Assembly (NCBI GenBank): GCA_017397935.1
Contig: JAFQHN010000013.1
Coordinates: 1 to 60,867 of the forward strand
Origin: Bacillota bacterium
GTDB lineage: Bacteria > Bacillota > Dehalobacteriia > UBA4068 > UBA4997
DNA: 60,867 nt
Direction: 5' to 3'
Shown: piece by piece, positions 51,864 through 60,867 of the stretch
How the letters are laid out: every line of letters starts with the position of its first letter
Numbering within the stretch: position 1 is the first letter of the stretch
Notes under the pieces: model-generated
Database searches by the model: none
Seen by the model: only the letters and a program-made list of their open reading frames with translations
What the model was told of the DNA's origin: nothing
Translations under genes and position numbers: made by a program

Positions 51864-52397
51864 TCAGGGCAGCAGCAGTCCGCCGATCAGCATCAGATAT
51901 TCCGGCGCTTTGTTATCCTGCACCCACAGTATCGGCTTATCAAAATATTTCTCACAAACCTTGCCCACATCACCGCCAAGAGCTTCAATGGAATAACGCA
52001 GTTTGTCCGGATAGCGGCATACCTGCCCCTGCGCCCGCCGGCAATCACTGCATAATGCACAGCTGCCGCCTGATAAGTAAAGACTGCCCGGATGTTCTGC
52101 TTCCATCTCGCTAAGCCGCTGATCAAAGCCCGGTTTCTCGCTGTGCAGAGCCGCCACCAGCTCAGCGCTGCCCATTTCATCTGACGGCCTGAGCACCAGC
52201 GCATACAAACGCAGCTTATTATACTTATGCCAGATGTCCATAGGATCAAACTCAAACGGCGGGCAAGACCATTTGATGTTGTAATTATCACATTGTTGAC
52301 AGCAGGCCAGAAACTTCGGCACATCAATGCACTCGGCCAAAAACTCCTGATAATCACCCACAACAGTCTCCATACGCTCGGTAATATAATTTGCCAT
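51864..52397 (-). CDS. DUF2284 predicted metal-binding protein
   Basis: The ATG at 52397 follows AAGGAGG by 9 bases. The 177-residue protein has paired Cys sets CCQQCDNYNIKWSCPP (residues ~32-47) and CALCSDCRRAQGQVCRYP (~113-130), the DUF2284 pattern, likely for Fe-S or zinc. Related proteins are found beside corrinoid enzymes and methyltransferases in anaerobes, but the function is not established. It lies just downstream of the ECF transporter gene cluster, on the same strand direction but with its own spacing. Confidence 0.85.
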   Translation of the reverse strand: MANYITERMETVVGDYQEFLAECIDVPKFLACCQQCDNYNIKWSCPPFEFDPMDIWHKYNKLRLYALVLRPSDEMGSAELVAALHSEKPGFDQRLSEMEAEHPGSLYLSGGSCALCSDCRRAQGQVCRYPDKLRYSIEALGGDVGKVCEKYFDKPILWVQDNKAPEYLMLIGGLLLP

Positions 52398-52506
52398 CAA
52401 TAAAAACCTCCTTTATCATCAGCACTTTTTTATTATTATAATATAATACCTTTACATAAATAAAGAAAAAGTTATCGGATAATGATAAACCGATAACTTT
52501 CTATCT

Positions 52507-55152
52507 TTACTCCACCAGACCGTATTTGACCTTGATGCGATCCAGCTTTTCCAGCATCGGTTCGGCAGCAAACCAGAGGAATAGCCATGTGCCGGCGGCG
52601 TGGACACAATCCACCGGGAATCCCGATATGTAATAGGTCATCAGCATCTGCCAGTTCAGTTCGTGCATATACATAAGCGCCGAGGCAGGGTTCATAATGC
52701 CACCGTAAATGATAATAGCTGCAAGTGCGCCATAAATACACAGAGACATTCGGCTGCGCCGCAGCCAGCCCTTACGGAAGAGTACCCCGGCCAGAAAACC
52801 GATAATACCCATACAAAACATCTGCCAGGGCGCCCACGGCCCCTGAGAGAACATCAGATTGGATACCAGCATGGTCATCGCACCCACCAGAAAACCGGTT
52901 TCGCCGCCCATAGCCACACCTGCGATGATCGTCAGTGCCATTACCGGCTTAAACTCCGGCAGCATAAAGAATGCCGCACGGCCGGCCACACCTATGGCGC
53001 ACAGCACCGCAATCAGCACCAACTCCCGCGCCTGTGGCTTGCGGCTTTCAAAGATCAGGAAAAACGGTATCATACATTCCAGCAGTATCAGCAGAGAGAT
53101 GAAATAATACTTCTTGCCGACGAGATAAGTCTCGCCTATAAATAAAGTAAGCGGTATCGTCAGCAATATCAAAACCGTCGCCACCATAGTGCGTTTGGAC
53201 AGTTTGCGTTTCTCCTTTGGTGTTTGCAGCAGATAATCCGGCCGCGGTACATGACGGAATACCGCCGCAGCAAAAACAAACATCGCACCGATCATCCAGG
53301 CATACAGAGTAAGCTGATCCTGCGCCAGTGCAGTCATTCCCTCTGCGTTTATCATCGCAGAAAGATCGGTCACACCCATCGTCTGCACCAACAGCATTAT
53401 CGTTACCGCGCCCGATGCCGCCGCCAGCAGCTTTCGCCACCAGGGAAGCGGCTTGGGCTGCCAGTTTGCGGTATTTTCGGCAGGCTGCGGCAGAACAAAA
53501 TCATCACCTTGCAGCTCCGGTACAGGCGGCAGTTCACCGCCGCAGGCCGCTATCAGATCCTCGGTGGTCACCGCACGGGGCAGCAGCAGCCGCGCCATAC
53601 GGTTGGCCGATGTAGTATAGAAATTATTGCCGGAGAAGAATGTGCGGGGGGATGCCTGAGTCACGATATTGCCGTCAAAGAACAGCGCACAGGTATGAGC
53701 ATGGCGCGCGCAAAACTCAATATCATGGCTCACCATCAATATGGTGACACCACGCCGCAGCAGCACCTGCACGATCTCGGCAAAGACCTGCTTGAATTCT
53801 GCGTCCAGGCCCTTGGTCGGCTCGTCCATCAGCAATATTTCGGGGTCCAGCAGCAGCACCTTGGCCAAGGCGGTACGCTGCTGTTCGCCGCCGGAGAGGT
53901 CATAAGGGTGCCGGTCAAGGAGTTCTTCCAGGCGGCAAAGCTGCACCACCTGCGCCACACCGGCCTCTTTATCCTGCCGGCTAAGCCTGCTGCCGCGCAG
54001 TATCTCAAAGAGATCTTCGCGCACGGTTTTTTTGACGAACAACGACTGCGGATCCTGCGGCAGCACACCCACGCTGCCGTTGATGCGCACCTGCCCACGG
54101 TAAGGCTTCAACAAACCGGCCAGCATTTTCAGACTGGTGGTTTTGCCGGTGCCGTTGCCGCCCAGCAGCGCCATAAACTCACCCTTACGCACATTAAGTG
54201 AGAGGCCTTTTACAATATCGGGTGCATCCTTCTCATACTTAAACCACAAATCATCAGCAGTAATGGCAATATCCCCGGCATAAGCATGACGCGGCTCATC
54301 CGGGAGCTCTGCCAGCGGATTTGCCGCCGCAAACCCGGTCAGCCAATCCCGACCCTCACGCACGGTGACGGGACATTCCGCCTCATTGGGCACTGCCGCC
54401 CACACCCGCATCGCCGTCGGCATCGCCAGGAACATTGAATGTCCTTTATCCTTCAACAGCTTGCCAACCTCGGCCGGCTCACCGGTGCAAAGCAGCCTGC
54501 CCTTATCCATAACAGCCACCTTGGTTGCCAGCGGAAAAGCCTCCTCCAAGCGGTGCTCGGTCAGGATGATGGTTGTACCGAGTTCACGGTTGATTTTGCC
54601 GAGTGTCGCCAGAAAATCCGATGCCGCGATAGGGTCAAGCTGGCTGGTCGGCTCGTCCAATATCAGAACACTGGGCTGCATGGCCATCACCGAGGCCAGA
54701 TTAAGCAGTTGTTTTTGCCCGCCCGATAACTCGGTGACATTTTTATAAAACCATGTCTGAATACCAAAAAACGATGCCATCTCCGCTACCCGACGGCGTA
54801 TCGTCAGCGTATCATAGCCAAGGCTCTCCAAACCGAAAGCCAGCTCATGCCACACCTTATCCGTCACGATCTGATTCTCCGGTGATTGCTGCACAAAGCC
54901 GATTTTCTGGCTCTGTGTCCGCTGATCCAGCTCATCCAGCGGCACACCCTCAAACAAAATCTCACCGCTGCGGCGGCCGTGCGGCGCCAATACCGTCTTT
55001 AACTGCCGCAGCAAAGTCGATTTGCCGCACCCGGAAGGCCCGCAGAGGATGATGAATTCACCCGGCTCAATACGCAGCGACACATCATTGATGGTGTTGT
55101 CTTTTTGCTCCGGATACGCAAAACTCAGGTTTCGTATCGCAAACGTTGCCAT
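52507..55152 (-). CDS. Fused ECF transporter: two ATPase domains plus S component
   Basis: The start is the ATG at 55152 after GGGAGGACAG; the frame open to 55329 is an overlap with ecfT. The 881-residue protein has ATPase 1 (Walker A at 38-46 GPSGCGKST, signature ELSGGQKQLL ~141, Walker B VLILDEPTSQLD ~162), ATPase 2 (GGNGTGKTT ~331-339, DLSGGEQQRT ~418, ILLMDEPTKGLD ~439), a linker, and six or more helices from ~575 to the end. The last ~210 residues (ELVLIAVLCAIGVAGRAAFF...MTMLVSNLMFSQGPWAPWQM) are an ECF S component. Usually these are three proteins. With EcfT upstream it forms a complete importer; a cobalamin riboswitch and DUF4430 proteins in the operon suggest a corrinoid ligand. Confidence 0.9.
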   Translation of the reverse strand: MATFAIRNLSFAYPEQKDNTINDVSLRIEPGEFIILCGPSGCGKSTLLRQLKTVLAPHGRRSGEILFEGVPLDELDQRTQSQKIGFVQQSPENQIVTDKVWHELAFGLESLGYDTLTIRRRVAEMASFFGIQTWFYKNVTELSGGQKQLLNLASVMAMQPSVLILDEPTSQLDPIAASDFLATLGKINRELGTTIILTEHRLEEAFPLATKVAVMDKGRLLCTGEPAEVGKLLKDKGHSMFLAMPTAMRVWAAVPNEAECPVTVREGRDWLTGFAAANPLAELPDEPRHAYAGDIAITADDLWFKYEKDAPDIVKGLSLNVRKGEFMALLGGNGTGKTTSLKMLAGLLKPYRGQVRINGSVGVLPQDPQSLFVKKTVREDLFEILRGSRLSRQDKEAGVAQVVQLCRLEELLDRHPYDLSGGEQQRTALAKVLLLDPEILLMDEPTKGLDAEFKQVFAEIVQVLLRRGVTILMVSHDIEFCARHAHTCALFFDGNIVTQASPRTFFSGNNFYTTSANRMARLLLPRAVTTEDLIAACGGELPPVPELQGDDFVLPQPAENTANWQPKPLPWWRKLLAAASGAVTIMLLVQTMGVTDLSAMINAEGMTALAQDQLTLYAWMIGAMFVFAAAVFRHVPRPDYLLQTPKEKRKLSKRTMVATVLILLTIPLTLFIGETYLVGKKYYFISLLILLECMIPFFLIFESRKPQARELVLIAVLCAIGVAGRAAFFMLPEFKPVMALTIIAGVAMGGETGFLVGAMTMLVSNLMFSQGPWAPWQMFCMGIIGFLAGVLFRKGWLRRSRMSLCIYGALAAIIIYGGIMNPASALMYMHELNWQMLMTYYISGFPVDCVHAAGTWLFLWFAAEPMLEKLDRIKVKYGLVE

Positions 55153-56021
55153 TTTCTGTCCTCCCATACATCCAGAATCACCGGCGTCAGGCACAGCGCC
55201 AAATATACCAGCTGAAAGCTGATTGGGAAGGCTCCGCCCAAGACGCCTTTGATGTCTGGAAAATACCGCCACGCCATACCGCCGCTCAGCCAGCCGGATG
55301 TTATATAAAACCCACAGTAAGCCAGCCAACAGAGTGCGGCCTTATCCCTCTCATCAAAACGATAAATTGAAAAAGCAGTACGCCCGGGCAGACCATAACC
55401 GCGGCTTTTCATGCTGTCAGCCGTTTCGATAGCATTCTCCAAGCTCCACGTTACCATAATGGAGAAAACGGTAACAGCATTTTTCAGCCTCTCCAGGATA
55501 CTGCCCTCGGCCATATCCCGCCCCACACAGCGCTGGGCATCCGCCACCACAGCAAACTGTGCCTTGAACTTCGGCACAAAACGCAGCGTCATTGAAAGCA
55601 CCAGACTGAGTGCCGGTATGATACGGCCAAAAAGATAAACAAATTTATCCGATGTCATCACCGCAGTATAACAGGAAAACCAGGTAATGATCGCTGCCAG
55701 CATCGCCGCGGCAGCAATACCGTAAACGATACTTTCCAGCGTAAGGGGGTTGCCGGTGGGCAGATAAGTAAGAATAGTTTTGCCCTCATGGTTAAATACC
55801 GGATTGATGACCGCCGCCAGCAGCATCATCGGCAGCATATACAGCAAGGAGAAGCGCACTGCTTTGTCGCCGTTGAGATAAACGGCATAAGCCAGCGCCG
55901 CCGCCAGAGATATGTACAGGCTGACGGGGTGCATAAAAAACATCGTAAAAAACAGCACCAAACCAAAATACAGAAAATTCACCAGCGGATGATAACCGGC
56001 AAAGGTATCTCTGTTTGACAT
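55125..56021 (-). CDS. ecfT: ECF transporter T component
   Basis: The 298-residue integral membrane protein has the CbiQ/EcfT fold. Cytosolic coupling helices contain AETADSMKSRGYG (the Ser-Arg-Gly motif) after SMTLRFVPKFKAQF. Its last 28 bases overlap the start of the fused ATPase gene. It couples both ATPase domains to the S component. Confidence 0.92.
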   Translation of the reverse strand: MSNRDTFAGYHPLVNFLYFGLVLFFTMFFMHPVSLYISLAAALAYAVYLNGDKAVRFSLLYMLPMMLLAAVINPVFNHEGKTILTYLPTGNPLTLESIVYGIAAAAMLAAIITWFSCYTAVMTSDKFVYLFGRIIPALSLVLSMTLRFVPKFKAQFAVVADAQRCVGRDMAEGSILERLKNAVTVFSIMVTWSLENAIETADSMKSRGYGLPGRTAFSIYRFDERDKAALCWLAYCGFYITSGWLSGGMAWRYFPDIKGVLGGAFPISFQLVYLALCLTPVILDVWEDRKWQRLRYET

Positions 56022-56056
56022 TTTATATCACTCTCATCTGATATTACACATAAAAC

Positions 56057-56977
56057 CTATGCGGCCATATTACCTGCCGAATAGCCGCCGCCAATATCAT
56101 TACCCAAATCACAGGTATATTCCCAGCAGATAACATCGCCATCCTGCAACTGATAACGGCTGGAACCGTAATTCGGGAACCAATCATTGACCTTATACAT
56201 CCAGCCGGAAAGCTCGCCCACATCAAACTCATAAAGGTTGTGGATGCCCTCGATATAGGCGCTGTTGTAGATGGGTGTATCCTCGTATTCCATATGTATC
56301 TTCTGCTGCTTGCATACCCGTTGCAGCACATTGAACACACTCTCGCCCTCATAGAAGGTGACCGTCAGCGGCTTTAATATCCAGCCGTCCTCCGGCACCA
56401 GCTCCACTTTCTCAGGGTCACAATAAGCAATATTGTCCAAAATCGTTGAGCAGTTGATGGATATGGTACAGCTGTAAGCGGTACTGCCGATGGTCACATC
56501 CTGAGGTTCCACCGGCACCGGTTTTCCCTCCGGTACCGGATCTGTCTGGTATCTGTCCTTGCCGGTTTCCGGGTTGATAACCATTACCGGCTCGTCCACA
56601 ATCTCATCGGCAGGATCATCGGTCGGCTGCGGTTCATCAATCGGCTCATCATTAGCAGACACATTATTATCAGGCTCATCAGGTGTTGCGGTCTGCTGCG
56701 TGTTATCAGTTTCAGTACCCGGTTCATCGGTCGGCTGAGGGTCATCAGCTTCACCGTTGTTATCATCAGCCACGGCAGCATCAATATCAGTATCAATATC
56801 GGTATCGGCAGGCTGTTCACCGGAAATTTCATCACCCACCACAGCGTTATTGGCAACGTCATTACCCACGTTCCAGCCATGAGAACCGGGGGCATTACCG
56901 CCGACATAAAACGCCACCGCCAGCGCAGCGATAATGATGAGCGGCAGTATTATCTTCCATTTATTTTTTGGCGTCAT
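56057..56977 (-). CDS. Membrane-anchored DUF4430 (transcobalamin-C-like) protein
   Basis: The 306-residue protein has an N-terminal transmembrane anchor (WKIILPLIIIAALAVAFYVGG), about 110 residues of acidic, Pro/Thr/Gln-rich linker with repeated DEP and QPTD(E/D)P units, and a C-terminal DUF4430 domain (~205-290: TVTFYEGESVFNVLQRVCKQQ...GELSGWMYKVNDWFPN...LQDGDVICWEYTCD). DUF4430 is related to the beta domain of human transcobalamin/intrinsic factor. It sits between the cyclase-fold SLH gene and ecfT, so it may hand a bound ligand to the transporter. Confidence 0.85.
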   Translation of the reverse strand: MTPKNKWKIILPLIIIAALAVAFYVGGNAPGSHGWNVGNDVANNAVVGDEISGEQPADTDIDTDIDAAVADDNNGEADDPQPTDEPGTETDNTQQTATPDEPDNNVSANDEPIDEPQPTDDPADEIVDEPVMVINPETGKDRYQTDPVPEGKPVPVEPQDVTIGSTAYSCTISINCSTILDNIAYCDPEKVELVPEDGWILKPLTVTFYEGESVFNVLQRVCKQQKIHMEYEDTPIYNSAYIEGIHNLYEFDVGELSGWMYKVNDWFPNYGSSRYQLQDGDVICWEYTCDLGNDIGGGYSAGNMAA

Positions 56978-56994
56978 ATTACTCCGACACTCCT

Positions 56995-58641
56995 TTACAG
57001 CAGCTCTGCCTTATCCAGCAGATTATACAGCATCTGGGCAATCTCACAGCGCAGAATGGCACGCCCGGGCTCAATGTTCAAATCGCTCTGGTCCAGAATG
57101 TCCTCGCTGTAACAAAAAGCCACAAACTCCCGCGCCCAATCGTTGATGGTCACATAATCACCAAATTGCGCCAGCATATTCAGCACCTCATGGCTCTCCA
57201 TCTCGGTATCCATACCGCAAAGCCTGGCAGCACGAGCCACCATTGCAGCGGCCTCCTGCCGGGTAATCTTGCTGTTCGGCTCAAAGGTGGCTGCCGAAGT
57301 ACCATTGACAATACCGTAATAATTGGCAGTATCAATATAGGCCGCATACCAGGCGCCGGGTTTAATATCGCTGAATACGTTTCGGGCAGAAGTCTCCAAC
57401 CCCAGGGCACGCACCACGATAGCCGCAAATTCAGCCCTCGTCATGGTATCATTCGGACGGAAGATATACGCACCATTGGCGGCCTCACCGGTAATAATAC
57501 CACGGGAAGCCAGCGCCTCCACAGCAGCCTGATTGGCGTGGGCCTTAATATCGGTAAAAGTCATCCCGGCGGAAGTCACAGCCACCGGCTTTACAGCGGC
57601 ATCTTTGCCGGGCAGACCGATGCTAACACTTTCATTATCAACACCTACGGAGATAGTGCAATCATTCATACGGTACAGGCTGTTTTGGCCCTTTTCAGCG
57701 CGCATAGCCGCCACGAGGCCATAAAAACCCTGCTCGGTCGCCATCTGATTGGTGCCGCCGCCGGCAACATGACAGAAGCTGCCATCGGCCTGACGATAGG
57801 TCAGCAGATTATCCAGCAGAGAATTGCCGTCTTTAATGAAGCGGGGATCGTTGATATCAATACCCAGTTCACACAGCGCCGTGATTACCTGCACCACACT
57901 TTCCAGATTGGTGGTACCGTAGCTGCTGTAACCGCCTTTATCATTCTGCATATCACTCAGGCAGGCCAGCGCTTTTTCTGTCGCTGCCTTTACCTTGGGC
58001 TGATCCTGGTATTTGGCCAGCGCCTGCAGTGCCATACCGGTGATATCAGCATCGGCCGCGCTGCTGCCGCCTTTGGCAGTCAGATTCCAGCCGCCGTCAT
58101 CAAGCTGACGGGAAATTATCTCATCAATATACATCTGACGGGTGGCCTGCGTTTTGGCCCCGGCATTCACCGGCATCTCATAACCGGCGCTGTCCAGCGC
58201 AATCAATGCCCAAATAGGGCCGTTGATACCCTGCCAAATCGTTTTATCAAAATCTCCCAGCGGTGTCAGCAGGTTATAGCCGGCCACATCGGCAGGGTCA
58301 GCACCGATAGCCGAGAGAGCCACGATAACACGGGAATATTCGGTATATTTCTTCTTGTGCAGCACACCGTCACATTCCTTTACGCAGTCTTCCACCGCTG
58401 CGTAATAATCCTGCCAATACTCCTGCGGCACATCATAACCGCTGCGTGCCAACCCCAGCACTGCCCACTCGCCGCCGATGGAGGCGACCTGCGGTTCTTT
58501 AACAGCTTTCAGCATATACGCCGCAGTCTTACTAACAGCATCATCCAAACTGCTGTTTGCCGCCAGCGCCGGCATCGCCACGCTGACCATCAATAACAAT
58601 GTCAGCAATACGCCCAGGCATTTCATTCTCAAAGTTTTCAT
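56995..58641 (-). CDS. SLH-anchored terpenoid-cyclase-fold protein (transcobalamin-alpha-like)
   Basis: The ATG at 58641 is 6 bases after GGGGAGGA; the ATG at 58647 touches it. The 548-residue protein has a signal peptide ending ALAA, an alpha/alpha barrel of the prenyltransferase/squalene-cyclase repeat type at ~30-330 (QLDDGGWNLT, QNDKGGYSSYGTTN, QADGSFCHV), and three S-layer homology domains at ~365-548 (FTDIKAHANQAAVEALASRGIITG; FSDIKPGAWYAAYI; NDWAREFVAFCYSEDIL). Barrel plus the DUF4430 domain of the next gene together correspond to the alpha and beta domains of cobalamin-binding proteins. It is controlled by the riboswitch leader upstream. Confidence 0.88.
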   Translation of the reverse strand: MKTLRMKCLGVLLTLLLMVSVAMPALAANSSLDDAVSKTAAYMLKAVKEPQVASIGGEWAVLGLARSGYDVPQEYWQDYYAAVEDCVKECDGVLHKKKYTEYSRVIVALSAIGADPADVAGYNLLTPLGDFDKTIWQGINGPIWALIALDSAGYEMPVNAGAKTQATRQMYIDEIISRQLDDGGWNLTAKGGSSAADADITGMALQALAKYQDQPKVKAATEKALACLSDMQNDKGGYSSYGTTNLESVVQVITALCELGIDINDPRFIKDGNSLLDNLLTYRQADGSFCHVAGGGTNQMATEQGFYGLVAAMRAEKGQNSLYRMNDCTISVGVDNESVSIGLPGKDAAVKPVAVTSAGMTFTDIKAHANQAAVEALASRGIITGEAANGAYIFRPNDTMTRAEFAAIVVRALGLETSARNVFSDIKPGAWYAAYIDTANYYGIVNGTSAATFEPNSKITRQEAAAMVARAARLCGMDTEMESHEVLNMLAQFGDYVTINDWAREFVAFCYSEDILDQSDLNIEPGRAILRCEIAQMLYNLLDKAELL

Positions 58642-58827
58642 CTTCATTCCTCCCCTACTATTTTTAAGCTGACAGATAACGCATCAGAACAGCCGCCAGA
58701 TTTGGCATGGCCGTAAGTGGCCACTTGGTGAAGCTATCGCCATCAGCTAATTACCCAATTTATTAAAAACTGCGATTACAGGTTGCTTTCATACAGCGTG
58801 ATACTGTCCATACGCACTTGACCGCAA

Positions 58828-58875
58828 TAAAAAAACGCTCAACAAATACAGCGCCAAAGCGCCTGGTATTCGTTG
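58828..58875 (-). terminator. Second terminator in the leader of the SLH-cyclase gene
   Basis: On the minus strand AACGAATACCAGGCGC and GCGCTGTATTTGTT form a long, slightly imperfect stem, followed by GAGCG and seven T. It is downstream of the riboswitch terminator, so the RNA must pass two stops before the gene. Confidence 0.75.
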
Positions 58876-58959
58876 GACGTCGGTTCTTCCGTAGGTCCGG
58901 CCTCTCAGCCTGCCCAGCGCGACCGCTGAGCCAAATATTAAATTATGCCAAACATACTG

Positions 58960-59150
58960 TATAAAAAAACCGCCCTCCGGCAAAGTGCCGACGGACGATA
59001 CACAAGCAAGCATCCAGTGACGGCAGACGCACAAAAACAGCCCAACGTATCTGGCTTAACCCCTCTCAGGAGGTATCACAGTGACCTACTCGTGGGGAAT
59101 CTCACCCCGTTCCGTTTCTGAATTATTTCAGCAGACTGTTCGTTTATTCA
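58960..59150 (-). ncRNA. Cobalamin riboswitch with terminator
   Basis: On the minus strand the core reads ACGGAACGGGGTGAGATTCC at ~59098-59117, then GTAGGTCACTGTGA at ~59078-59091, and TTAAGCCAGATAC at ~59047-59059. This is the conserved GGAA-GGUG-AA-UCC / CACUGU / AGCCAG series of the B12 class. A terminator (CCGTCGGC/GCCGGAGGGCGG, then T7) is at 58962-58996. A promoter lies at 59164-59192. When the corrinoid is bound, transcription of the downstream uptake genes should stop. Confidence 0.85.
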
Positions 59151-59163
59151 TTTATACTGGTAT

Positions 59164-59192
59164 ATGATACCATATATTTTTTTTGATTGCAA
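59164..59192 (-). promoter_or_regulatory. Promoter of the riboswitch leader
   Basis: On the minus strand TTGCAA (59187-59192), 17 bases, TATCAT (59164-59169). Transcription should begin near 59156, shortly before the aptamer. Confidence 0.7.
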
Positions 59193-59235: not shown

Positions 59236-59282
59236 AAAAATGGCCCCTTCTCCCCCTAAAACAGGAGGAAAAGGAGCCATTT
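59236..59282 (-). terminator. Terminator after the DUF4430-SLH gene
   Basis: TGGCTCCTTTTCC and GGGGAGAAGGGGCCA pair on the minus strand, followed by a T tract. It separates the partial gene from the riboswitch-controlled operon. Confidence 0.8.
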
Positions 59283-59289
59283 ACAGCTG

Positions 59290-60867
59290 TTATTTTGCGG
59301 TATTTTCCAGATAACGCATCAGGATCGTTGCCACCTCGGCGCGGGTAGCCTTACCCTTGGCGTCGATGACATTACCGGTTTTGCCGGTAATCAATCCCTC
59401 GGCATTGGCCCACTGCATAGCTTCTTTTGCATAGTCACTCACTCCATTTGCATCATTAAAAGCAAGTGTATTCTCAGCTGCAATCGGGTTGCCAGCATAA
59501 CGCCAAAGCATAACTGCCAACTGCTCACGGGTAATGTTATCATTCGGGCCGAAGCTGCCGTCAGCATAGCCGCCGACGATTTTGTTCATCTCTGCCCAAC
59601 GGATAGCATCGGAATACCAGGTGCCGTTTGCAATATCAGCAAAGGCTGCATTGCCTTCTACTGCCGGGCTGCCGGCCAGACGGTACAGGATAGTGGTGAT
59701 CATCGCACGGCTGGTTGCCTGTTCAGGTGCGAAGGTGTTTTCAGTAACACCGGTCATCAGGCCTTTATCGGCAACATACTGAATGGCATCTGCCGCCCAA
59801 TGATCCTTTACATCGACGAAATTGCTTTCAGCAGGAGTGATTGTCTCACCAGTCAGTTCGGCGTAGGCTTTCTCGGCCTCTTTCAGCACATCCAGGTTGG
59901 ATACCAGTTCCTTCTGCGCATCAGTCAGGGCTTCATAAGCTGCACGGGCAGCCTTAATGGCCTCAGCGCTGTTTTCATCCACCTTGCCGATAGCCGCGAT
60001 CAGATTTTTGACCTCATTCGCAGCAGCACGATCCTCAGTAGTTATAGTCACACTGCCGCCTTCATCACGGTCGGTATCATCAGTATAGTCCACTACGTAA
60101 TACCATACCAGCTTGTCGCCGTCATTCAGGGTCTTGCCATCCATACCAATACCGGGAGCAACACCATTTATCCTGTACTTCCAGCCGGAATTGGGCCCCT
60201 CGGTAAACTCTGCCAAAGTTGTGCCCTTGTAAGTGATGGAACGCACGTAATCGGGATCAGCCTCATAAGAGAAACCGGATTTATTATCCAAAACCTTATA
60301 AAAAGCATCAGCAACCGTCGCACCGGCATCCAGCTTGATATTATGGGCAGAGATCCAGGTCGCATTATGAGTAATCAAAGAGAAAGAAACCGTAATACCT
60401 TCTTTGGTATCACCGGAGCTGCCACTACCACCGGTGGTTCCGCCGCTTTCCGCCTCAGCAACAGTCACAGTGCAAAAAGCCGGCACAACAGGTACATCCG
60501 TAAATTCCTTCTCTATATAACTGTTAGTAGCATAATCCCAGGCCGAACCGATATAAGAAGCCGTACCGCCGACTTCTACGGTATAAGTCCCGGCAGCAGC
60601 AAAATTCAGATTAAAGCTGCCGTCATCCGCAACGCTGGTCGCCATCGTGGTTACGGTCTCACCGTCAGCATCATACACGTTTACCGCTGCCCCCTTGGGC
60701 GCTACCACAGTAATACCACCGGCCAAACCATTGACGCTGAAAGAACCGGATTTGCCAACAGTCATATCAACGGTGTCATCCTCAAAATAAGCATAGAGAT
60801 CAGAATAATACGTTGTATCACGGTAGAAGTACGCATTGATAACATCATTTGCTTTTAATTCCGTCAA
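59290..60867 (-). CDS. DUF4430 protein with three S-layer homology domains, partial
   Basis: The reading frame is open to the window edge, so the N-terminus, including any signal peptide, is missing; the visible part is 525 residues. Residues ~50-115 look like a beta-sandwich or Ig-like segment (GTYTVEVGGTASYIG). Residues ~155-255 form a DUF4430 domain (NIKLDAGATVADAFYKVLD...GPNSGWKYRINGVAPGIGMDGKTLNDGDKLVWYYVVDY). A helical linker (~275-345) and three SLH domains (~350-525: FVDVKDHWAADAIQYVADKGLMTG; FADIANGTWYSDAIRWAEMNKIVGG; FNDANGVSDYAKEAMQWANAEGLITG) follow. It is a surface ligand-binding protein, probably part of the same uptake system. Confidence 0.9.
   Translation of the reverse strand: MTELKANDVINAYFYRDTTYYSDLYAYFEDDTVDMTVGKSGSFSVNGLAGGITVVAPKGAAVNVYDADGETVTTMATSVADDGSFNLNFAAAGTYTVEVGGTASYIGSAWDYATNSYIEKEFTDVPVVPAFCTVTVAEAESGGTTGGSGSSGDTKEGITVSFSLITHNATWISAHNIKLDAGATVADAFYKVLDNKSGFSYEADPDYVRSITYKGTTLAEFTEGPNSGWKYRINGVAPGIGMDGKTLNDGDKLVWYYVVDYTDDTDRDEGGSVTITTEDRAAANEVKNLIAAIGKVDENSAEAIKAARAAYEALTDAQKELVSNLDVLKEAEKAYAELTGETITPAESNFVDVKDHWAADAIQYVADKGLMTGVTENTFAPEQATSRAMITTILYRLAGSPAVEGNAAFADIANGTWYSDAIRWAEMNKIVGGYADGSFGPNDNITREQLAVMLWRYAGNPIAAENTLAFNDANGVSDYAKEAMQWANAEGLITGKTGNVIDAKGKATRAEVATILMRYLENTAK

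Follow-up and report, generated by a model that had tools for sequence, protein, structure and literature searches.

The stretch examined here is contig JAFQHN010000013.1 of the Bacillota bacterium assembly GCA_017397935.1, 60,867 nucleotides (nt) long and called the window below. Near one end it carries a cluster of genes for surface proteins and an energy-coupling factor (ECF) transporter, which is quite likely the 3′ part of an operon for capture and import of corrinoids (the vitamin B12 family), the ligand being deduced from homology and gene context. The host is a gut-type Clostridia bacterium, and the named relatives in its genus are metagenome-assembled genomes of the Clostridia/Peptococcaceae type. 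The genome (G000) consists of 1.59 Mb in 28 contigs and is 99.4% complete; the window is its contig C11. All features named in an earlier reading, made from the letters of the window without database searches (the sequence-only reading), are found on the minus strand. The genes it described are all present and closely packed, and a further surface protein gene lies ahead of them:

59290..60867, minus strand: upstream surface receptor gene, 3′ part only, cut by the contig end; DUF4430 domain (Pfam, 2e-12) and three surface-layer homology (SLH) domains (Pfam, 1e-32); position and domains match those in relatives
56995..58647, minus strand: secreted alpha/alpha-toroid protein of 550 amino acids (aa) with C-terminal SLH repeats; Pfam SLH (E-value = 8e-25) and SQHop_cyclase_C, signal peptide by eye
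56057..56977, minus strand: DUF4430 protein of 306 aa with an N-terminal membrane anchor and an acidic linker (Pfam E-value = 3e-19)
55125..56021, minus strand: EcfT (CbiQ family) transmembrane component (Pfam CbiQ, 6e-10)
52507..55152, minus strand: fused EcfA-EcfA′-S component of 881 aa with two sets of Walker A/B and signature motifs; S domain at 52510-53211, CbrT type

The first three genes of the cluster from the toroid gene onward are separated by 17 and 35 nt, and the EcfT and ATPase genes overlap by 28 nt. The start of the fused ATPase-ATPase-S gene is placed at 55152, an ATG with a ribosome-binding site, and not at 55329. Its product matches ABC_tran twice (3e-58) and ECF S-component families of Pfam (about 2e-8).

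The S domain is the most informative part of the transporter. A profile made from an alignment of its homologues and searched against all PDB sequences gives one significant match, 6FNP (CbrT of ECF-CbrT, E-value = 7e-20), with the next at 0.044. The window S sequence alone also finds 6FNP as its sole PDB match (E-value = 1.5e-9), and hhalign of the S domain against CbrT gives 98.7% over 169 columns. Among S components of solved structure, CbrT is the only homologue of this S domain. ECF-CbrT is a demonstrated importer of cobalamin and cobinamide (PMC5997447). EcfT and two intact ATPases are also present. The assignment as a putative corrinoid ECF importer, already made in the sequence-only reading, is supported, and its S domain is of the CbrT type. 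A riboflavin transporter, suggested by the Pfam label ECF-ribofla_trS, was considered and rejected; the label is uninformative because both Pfam families concerned also match CbrT.

The 306 aa DUF4430 protein shows a Pfam DUF4430 match as well as a fold like the beta domain of transcobalamin. Its AlphaFold2 model has a pLDDT (predicted local distance difference test) of 86, and when compared with all PDB folds, 17 of 17 matches with E-value ≤ 0.001 are transcobalamin, intrinsic factor or haptocorrin. A search of PDB with the DUF4430 sequence profile yields no transcobalamin match, and the relationship is visible by fold comparison only. A transcobalamin-like fold is thus supported for this protein at the level of the predicted structure. 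The alpha/alpha protein gives a model of pLDDT 90.6. Its PDB matches are headed by class II terpene cyclases, followed by GH88/105-type toroids, with transcobalamin in 15th place, and all template-modelling scores are modest. The predicted toroid is consistent with a carrier domain but is not diagnostic of one, because its best fold matches are toroids in general. A squalene-cyclase enzyme is disfavoured for this protein, as the Pfam score is weak and below the curated cut-off and both the operon context and the SLH anchor argue against it.

The sequence-only reading had assigned the two domains of the vertebrate cobalamin carriers to two separate surface proteins. The DUF4430 half of this claim is supported. 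The other half is less firm, as the toroid is generic, the two domains reside on one chain in 20 of 80 related loci, and the truncated receptor at 59290..60867 adds a third surface protein to the system, ahead of the toroid/DUF4430 pair. Homologues of this receptor in relatives reach about 2950 aa and often carry an alpha/alpha domain too.

Between the receptor gene and the toroid gene is a leader region with the following predicted elements:

59239..59281, minus strand: strong intrinsic terminator 3′ of the upstream receptor gene; 20-pair stem, 3-nt loop, T-run
59164..59192, minus strand: promoter-like TTGCAA-17-TATCAT, the -10 preceded by TG, some 24 nt ahead of the aptamer; consensus scan only
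59008..59140, minus strand: aptamer of a putative divergent cobalamin riboswitch, P6 arm short; identified by RF01482, a model from relatives and motif positions
58970..58997, minus strand: intrinsic terminator immediately following the aptamer, likely the expression platform; 13-pair hairpin, then seven T
58874..58911, minus strand: 38-nt leader element, with one further genome copy, on contig C26

The best Rfam match of the leader is the adenosylcobalamin (AdoCbl) family RF01482 at 59140..59008, with 18.6 bits vs a gathering score of 50 (E-value = 0.24; 4227 families, 211 nt). The match has the right core, but no cobalamin family match in the leader reaches the gathering score. An RF00174 search of the whole genome (E-value ≤ 10) does not list the window element; four other sites in the genome score 71–96 bits as cobalamin riboswitches. 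A covariance model (R1) was made from seven cobalamin elements with a short P6 arm, taken from relatives and excluding the window. It scores the window leader at 19.0 bits (E-value = 1.8e-5, 701 nt, filters off), with a runner-up of 2.0 bits. The conserved core GGAA..GGUGAnAnUCC..ACUGU..AAGYCAG is present with P1, P4 and P6 pairing. P1 is 7 bp (59140-59134/59042-59036), the core spans 59113-59051 and a P13-like hairpin is at 59030-59010. A loose core-motif pattern, written partly from the window element itself, is found once in the window and in 0 of 60 shuffled windows. The promoter-like site carries little weight alone because the scan is at chance level, with 2 sites found and 1.5 expected in shuffles. 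Neither Rfam nor the R1 model matches a second riboswitch in 58650-58975.

Cobalamin elements occupy the same place in related operons (L107, Ruminococcus bromii L178, G030 and others). In L107 a riboswitch of 68.8 bits lies between the receptor and alpha/alpha genes, directly before the latter. The nearest architecture is the G030 element (L096:4817-4960, 47.7 bits), which the R1 model finds at 26 bits. By homology, the window leader is a divergent member of the cobalamin riboswitches with predicted corrinoid binding. The P6 arm varies among the riboswitches of relatives, with long and short forms. In L079 and L080 (G029 and G028), two cobalamin riboswitches, a long form and then a short-P6 form, stand in tandem ahead of the receptor gene.

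Only the operon's 3′ part lies in the window, as the receptor gene runs off the contig end. Regulation by a cobalamin-type riboswitch, as claimed in the sequence-only reading, is supported; the riboswitch is weak in the window copy and unambiguous in many relatives. Contig C26 ends (G000:C26:55677-58073, L009) in a cobalamin riboswitch of 71.6 bits, after which come a small gene, whose homologue opens the G027 operon, and the beginning of a giant secreted protein that is cut by the contig end. The 38-nt element has a GAGGCCGGACC[T/C]ACGGAAGAACCGACGTCC core with a hairpin and T-run after it; the genome contains exactly two copies, at 58911-58874 (minus strand) of the window and at G000:C26:56414-56451 (L009:6415-6452). 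Each is ahead of a surface-protein gene, the C26 copy being upstream of the N-terminal part of the receptor gene. The element has no credible Rfam match. The content of the C26 end, and the restriction of the element to these two sites, suggest that C26 and C11 carry two parts of one operon.

At about 58740-58675 (minus strand), directly before the alpha/alpha gene, the window also shows a remnant of an SLH gene 3′ end (LAAVLMRYLSA*) like the receptor end in G026 (L088). This suggests a rearrangement that would have brought the riboswitch segment to its present place. Elsewhere in the genome, a 92-bit cobalamin riboswitch is found about 1 kb upstream of the gene for a 778 aa protein in which SLH is the only recognised domain type (L007:6641-8977, G000:C4), possibly another corrinoid surface protein.

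The gene set recurs in 35 genomes of the order, often with RF00174 matches over the cut-off just upstream. Among 80 named loci, the ATPase-ATPase-S fusion is found in 73, EcfT in 71, DUF4430 in 58, the alpha/alpha toroid in 50 and SLH in 34. These counts are minima because several contigs end inside the operon and the loci were chosen by S-domain similarity. In 50 of the genomes that hold these loci, a same-strand cobalamin riboswitch lies no more than 25 kb upstream in 35, and one on the opposite strand in 10, as matched by coordinates with contig identity unchecked. For at least 15 loci, the covariance model confirms a cobalamin element within the locus. Conserved linkage, like the gene content, is shown by computation.

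The operon also occurs in the cultured species R. bromii, Sporobacter termitidis and Fusibacter paucivorans. R. bromii is reported to be incapable of B12 synthesis (PMC6231298). No FecCD/BtuC homologue is found in either R. bromii strain searched, and the operon is present there. In the absence of a FecCD permease it is the only B12 importer recognised in this species by homology, other importer families not having been searched.

The surface anchor is different in different lineages. Dockerin_1 is found in 9 of 10 scanned receptors that carry no SLH, and in a second R. bromii receptor (L178). Receptors with dockerin for SLH include R. bromii L178:3307-5208 and L174:3232-5217, and those of L123, L129, L130, L135, L142, L154, L155 and L164, suggesting display on a cohesin scaffold (amylosome/cellulosome). 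A Latilactobacillus curvatus plasmid version is anchored by LPXTG. Since SLH, Dockerin_1 and LPXTG versions occur, the predicted anchor is exchangeable between lineages.

Several neighbouring genes vary in position. A DUF2284 gene adjoins the operon in the window:

51864..52400, minus strand: DUF2284 protein, adjoining the operon (Pfam 2.5e-21)

It is probably a separate transcript here, because a hairpin with a T-run, read from the sequence, lies between it and the ATPase-ATPase-S gene. The DUF2284 gene is inside the operon in L077, L106, L115, L119, L121 and L160, and in some relatives it separates EcfT from the ATPase gene. In two genomes metF (methylenetetrahydrofolate reductase) is directly upstream of EcfT, with no surface proteins there (L084:5745-6626 and L085:5864-6745). 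L078:12428-14085 (G027) shows a gene for a xylose-isomerase-like TIM-barrel and one of the DUF71/diphthamide-synthase family between EcfT and the ATPase gene. The DUF71 family has been linked to B12 salvage (PMC3541065).

The genome encodes B12-dependent enzymes, namely a MetH-like protein, methylmalonyl-CoA mutase and MeaB. It also carries a riboswitch-led operon of BtuF/C/D type and a riboswitch-led anaerobic corrin operon with CbiK, CbiA-type, CbiD, CbiF, CbiG, CbiH, CbiJ/E/T, CbiP and adenosyltransferase genes. The riboswitch-led corrin operon on G000:C13 (L006, L192) contains BtuF/C/D-type genes. Tetrapyrrole-methylase genes number only four in the genome (CbiF, CbiH, the CbiJ/E/T fusion and one on C25, which by its length is probably RsmI); therefore CbiL and uroporphyrinogen-III methylase are not seen among them. 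If this is not an assembly gap, de novo corrin synthesis would be incomplete and uptake would be needed. The sequence-only reading described the route as different from BtuBFCD. The operon has no FecCD-type permease or BtuF-type binding protein; because the genome also has BtuF/C/D-type genes, led by a riboswitch, the window operon is an additional route and not a replacement.

A number of observations weigh against a corrinoid operon controlled in this way. The alpha/alpha fold is generic and matches toroids in general. The window riboswitch is 31 bits below the Rfam cut-off and could be decayed or changed in ligand. Homologous operons with no detectable cobalamin riboswitch exist (L. curvatus, L198), a probably homologous ECF system of Latilactobacillus sakei has been reported as a heme importer (as cited in PMC7299338), and BtuF/C/D-type genes are already present under a strong cobalamin riboswitch (L008).

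One alternative explanation, rather unlikely, is that the window leader is a decayed remnant and the operon is driven by the strong C26 riboswitch before the receptor gene. The low scores fit this, as does the closest relative, G026, in which the receptor and alpha/alpha genes are separated by 19 nt that contain no riboswitch; the SLH-end leftover likewise suggests rearrangement. However, the core motifs, 7-bp P1, P13-like hairpin, 13-bp terminator and promoter-like site are all intact, L107 has its high-scoring riboswitch at the matching place, and the strong terminator at 59239..59281 separates the receptor unit from the riboswitch-led unit.

Lower in probability but a serious competitor is import of another tetrapyrrole, heme above all, with the riboswitch merely coupling the operon to cobalamin status or with specificity shifted within the family. 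The L. sakei heme ECF genes are presumably a five-gene locus laid out like the window operon, and the layout, DUF4430 included, is probably homologous. In the sister species L. curvatus the order is LPXTG protein-DUF4430-EcfT-ATPases-S, the S component also matches CbrT (3e-14), and no cobalamin riboswitch is found at the operon. The substrate reported for the L. sakei system is heme (Verplaetse preprint, as cited in PMC7299338). Against heme, cobalamin riboswitches precede the operon repeatedly in Clostridia, the DUF4430 fold matches B12 carriers, and in some relatives metF and DUF71 family genes adjoin the operon. The gene rtpR codes for an AdoCbl-dependent ribonucleotide reductase. In Lacticaseibacillus rhamnosus it lies next to a DUF4430 gene, and a protein at that place bears the annotation 'Additional lipoprotein component of putative cobalamin ECF transporter' (PMC9963975).

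A cobalt/nickel ECF importer of the CbiMNQO type feeding the B12 biosynthesis genes is hardly credible: EcfT matches Pfam CbiQ and many anaerobic corrin genes are under riboswitch control, but Pfam and PDB searches find no CbiM/NikM-type S component in the operon, the S domain resembles CbrT and not a metal S component, and a metal ion would hardly call for large receptors bearing domains like those of transcobalamin.

A corrinoid operon of this kind is not new as a prediction, and its novelty was overstated in the sequence-only reading. The passages of Burroughs et al. 2007 (PMC1796856) on these proteins propose B12 scavenging by toroids and SLBB proteins (now DUF4430) encoded in CbiO/CbiQ operons, and that animals gained the combination by lateral transfer, the DUF4430-type domain coming from Gram-positive bacteria. 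Those operons share with the window a secreted SLBB protein, alpha/alpha toroids, a second surface SLBB protein and CbiO/CbiQ. In contrast, the SLH/surface-layer anchors found here have no mention in that paper, and those passages contain neither a CbrT-type S component nor a riboswitch. An importer with this type of S component has likewise been demonstrated, the ECF-CbrT of Lactobacillus delbrueckii (PMC5997447, PDB 6FNP), which has the same S-component family and ECF architecture. However, the window system has its ATPases and S on one polypeptide, a dedicated EcfT and surface receptors, whereas L. delbrueckii CbrT uses the common ECF module. The present analysis adds the identification of the S domain as CbrT type, the link to riboswitches and the interchangeable SLH, dockerin and LPXTG anchors.

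Vertebrate transcobalamin, intrinsic factor and haptocorrin have beta domains to which the DUF4430 fold is closest, and their other domain is an alpha/alpha toroid. These carriers are soluble single chains, whereas in the window each domain has an anchored protein of its own and DUF4430 occurs in additional copies. The BtuG/BtuH lipoproteins of Bacteroides (PMC6143338, PMC8941943) also capture B12 at the surface before import, but they are other proteins, in a Gram-negative envelope with import by BtuB/BtuFCD.

For the system as a whole, the following ligand, switching direction and order of relay are proposed. At low intracellular cobalamin, the riboswitch would let transcription pass the terminator at 58997-58970, acting as an OFF switch. 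The operon would then produce corrinoid-binding proteins anchored in the surface layer (the alpha/alpha toroid and DUF4430/SLH proteins). The membrane-tethered DUF4430 protein may take the ligand near the membrane by hand-over, and the CbrT-type S domain of the dedicated ECF transporter would move the corrinoid across the membrane using ATP. A more tentative and somewhat doubtful extension is a split transcobalamin, in which the surface-layer toroid and the tethered DUF4430 protein, two polypeptides, would jointly enclose one corrinoid and deliver it to the S domain. The anchor module would be swapped between lineages (SLH, dockerin, LPXTG), and the R. bromii receptor may sit on the amylosome scaffold.

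Surface corrinoid capture is far less understood in Gram-positive gut bacteria than in Bacteroides. The 2007 idea becomes testable with the SLH/dockerin anchoring and the matching transporter, and dockerin-borne receptors suggest that cellulosome-type scaffolds may bear vitamin receptors besides glycan enzymes. The operon is widespread in Clostridia, and as a bacterial counterpart of the animal B12 carriers it lends itself to testing.

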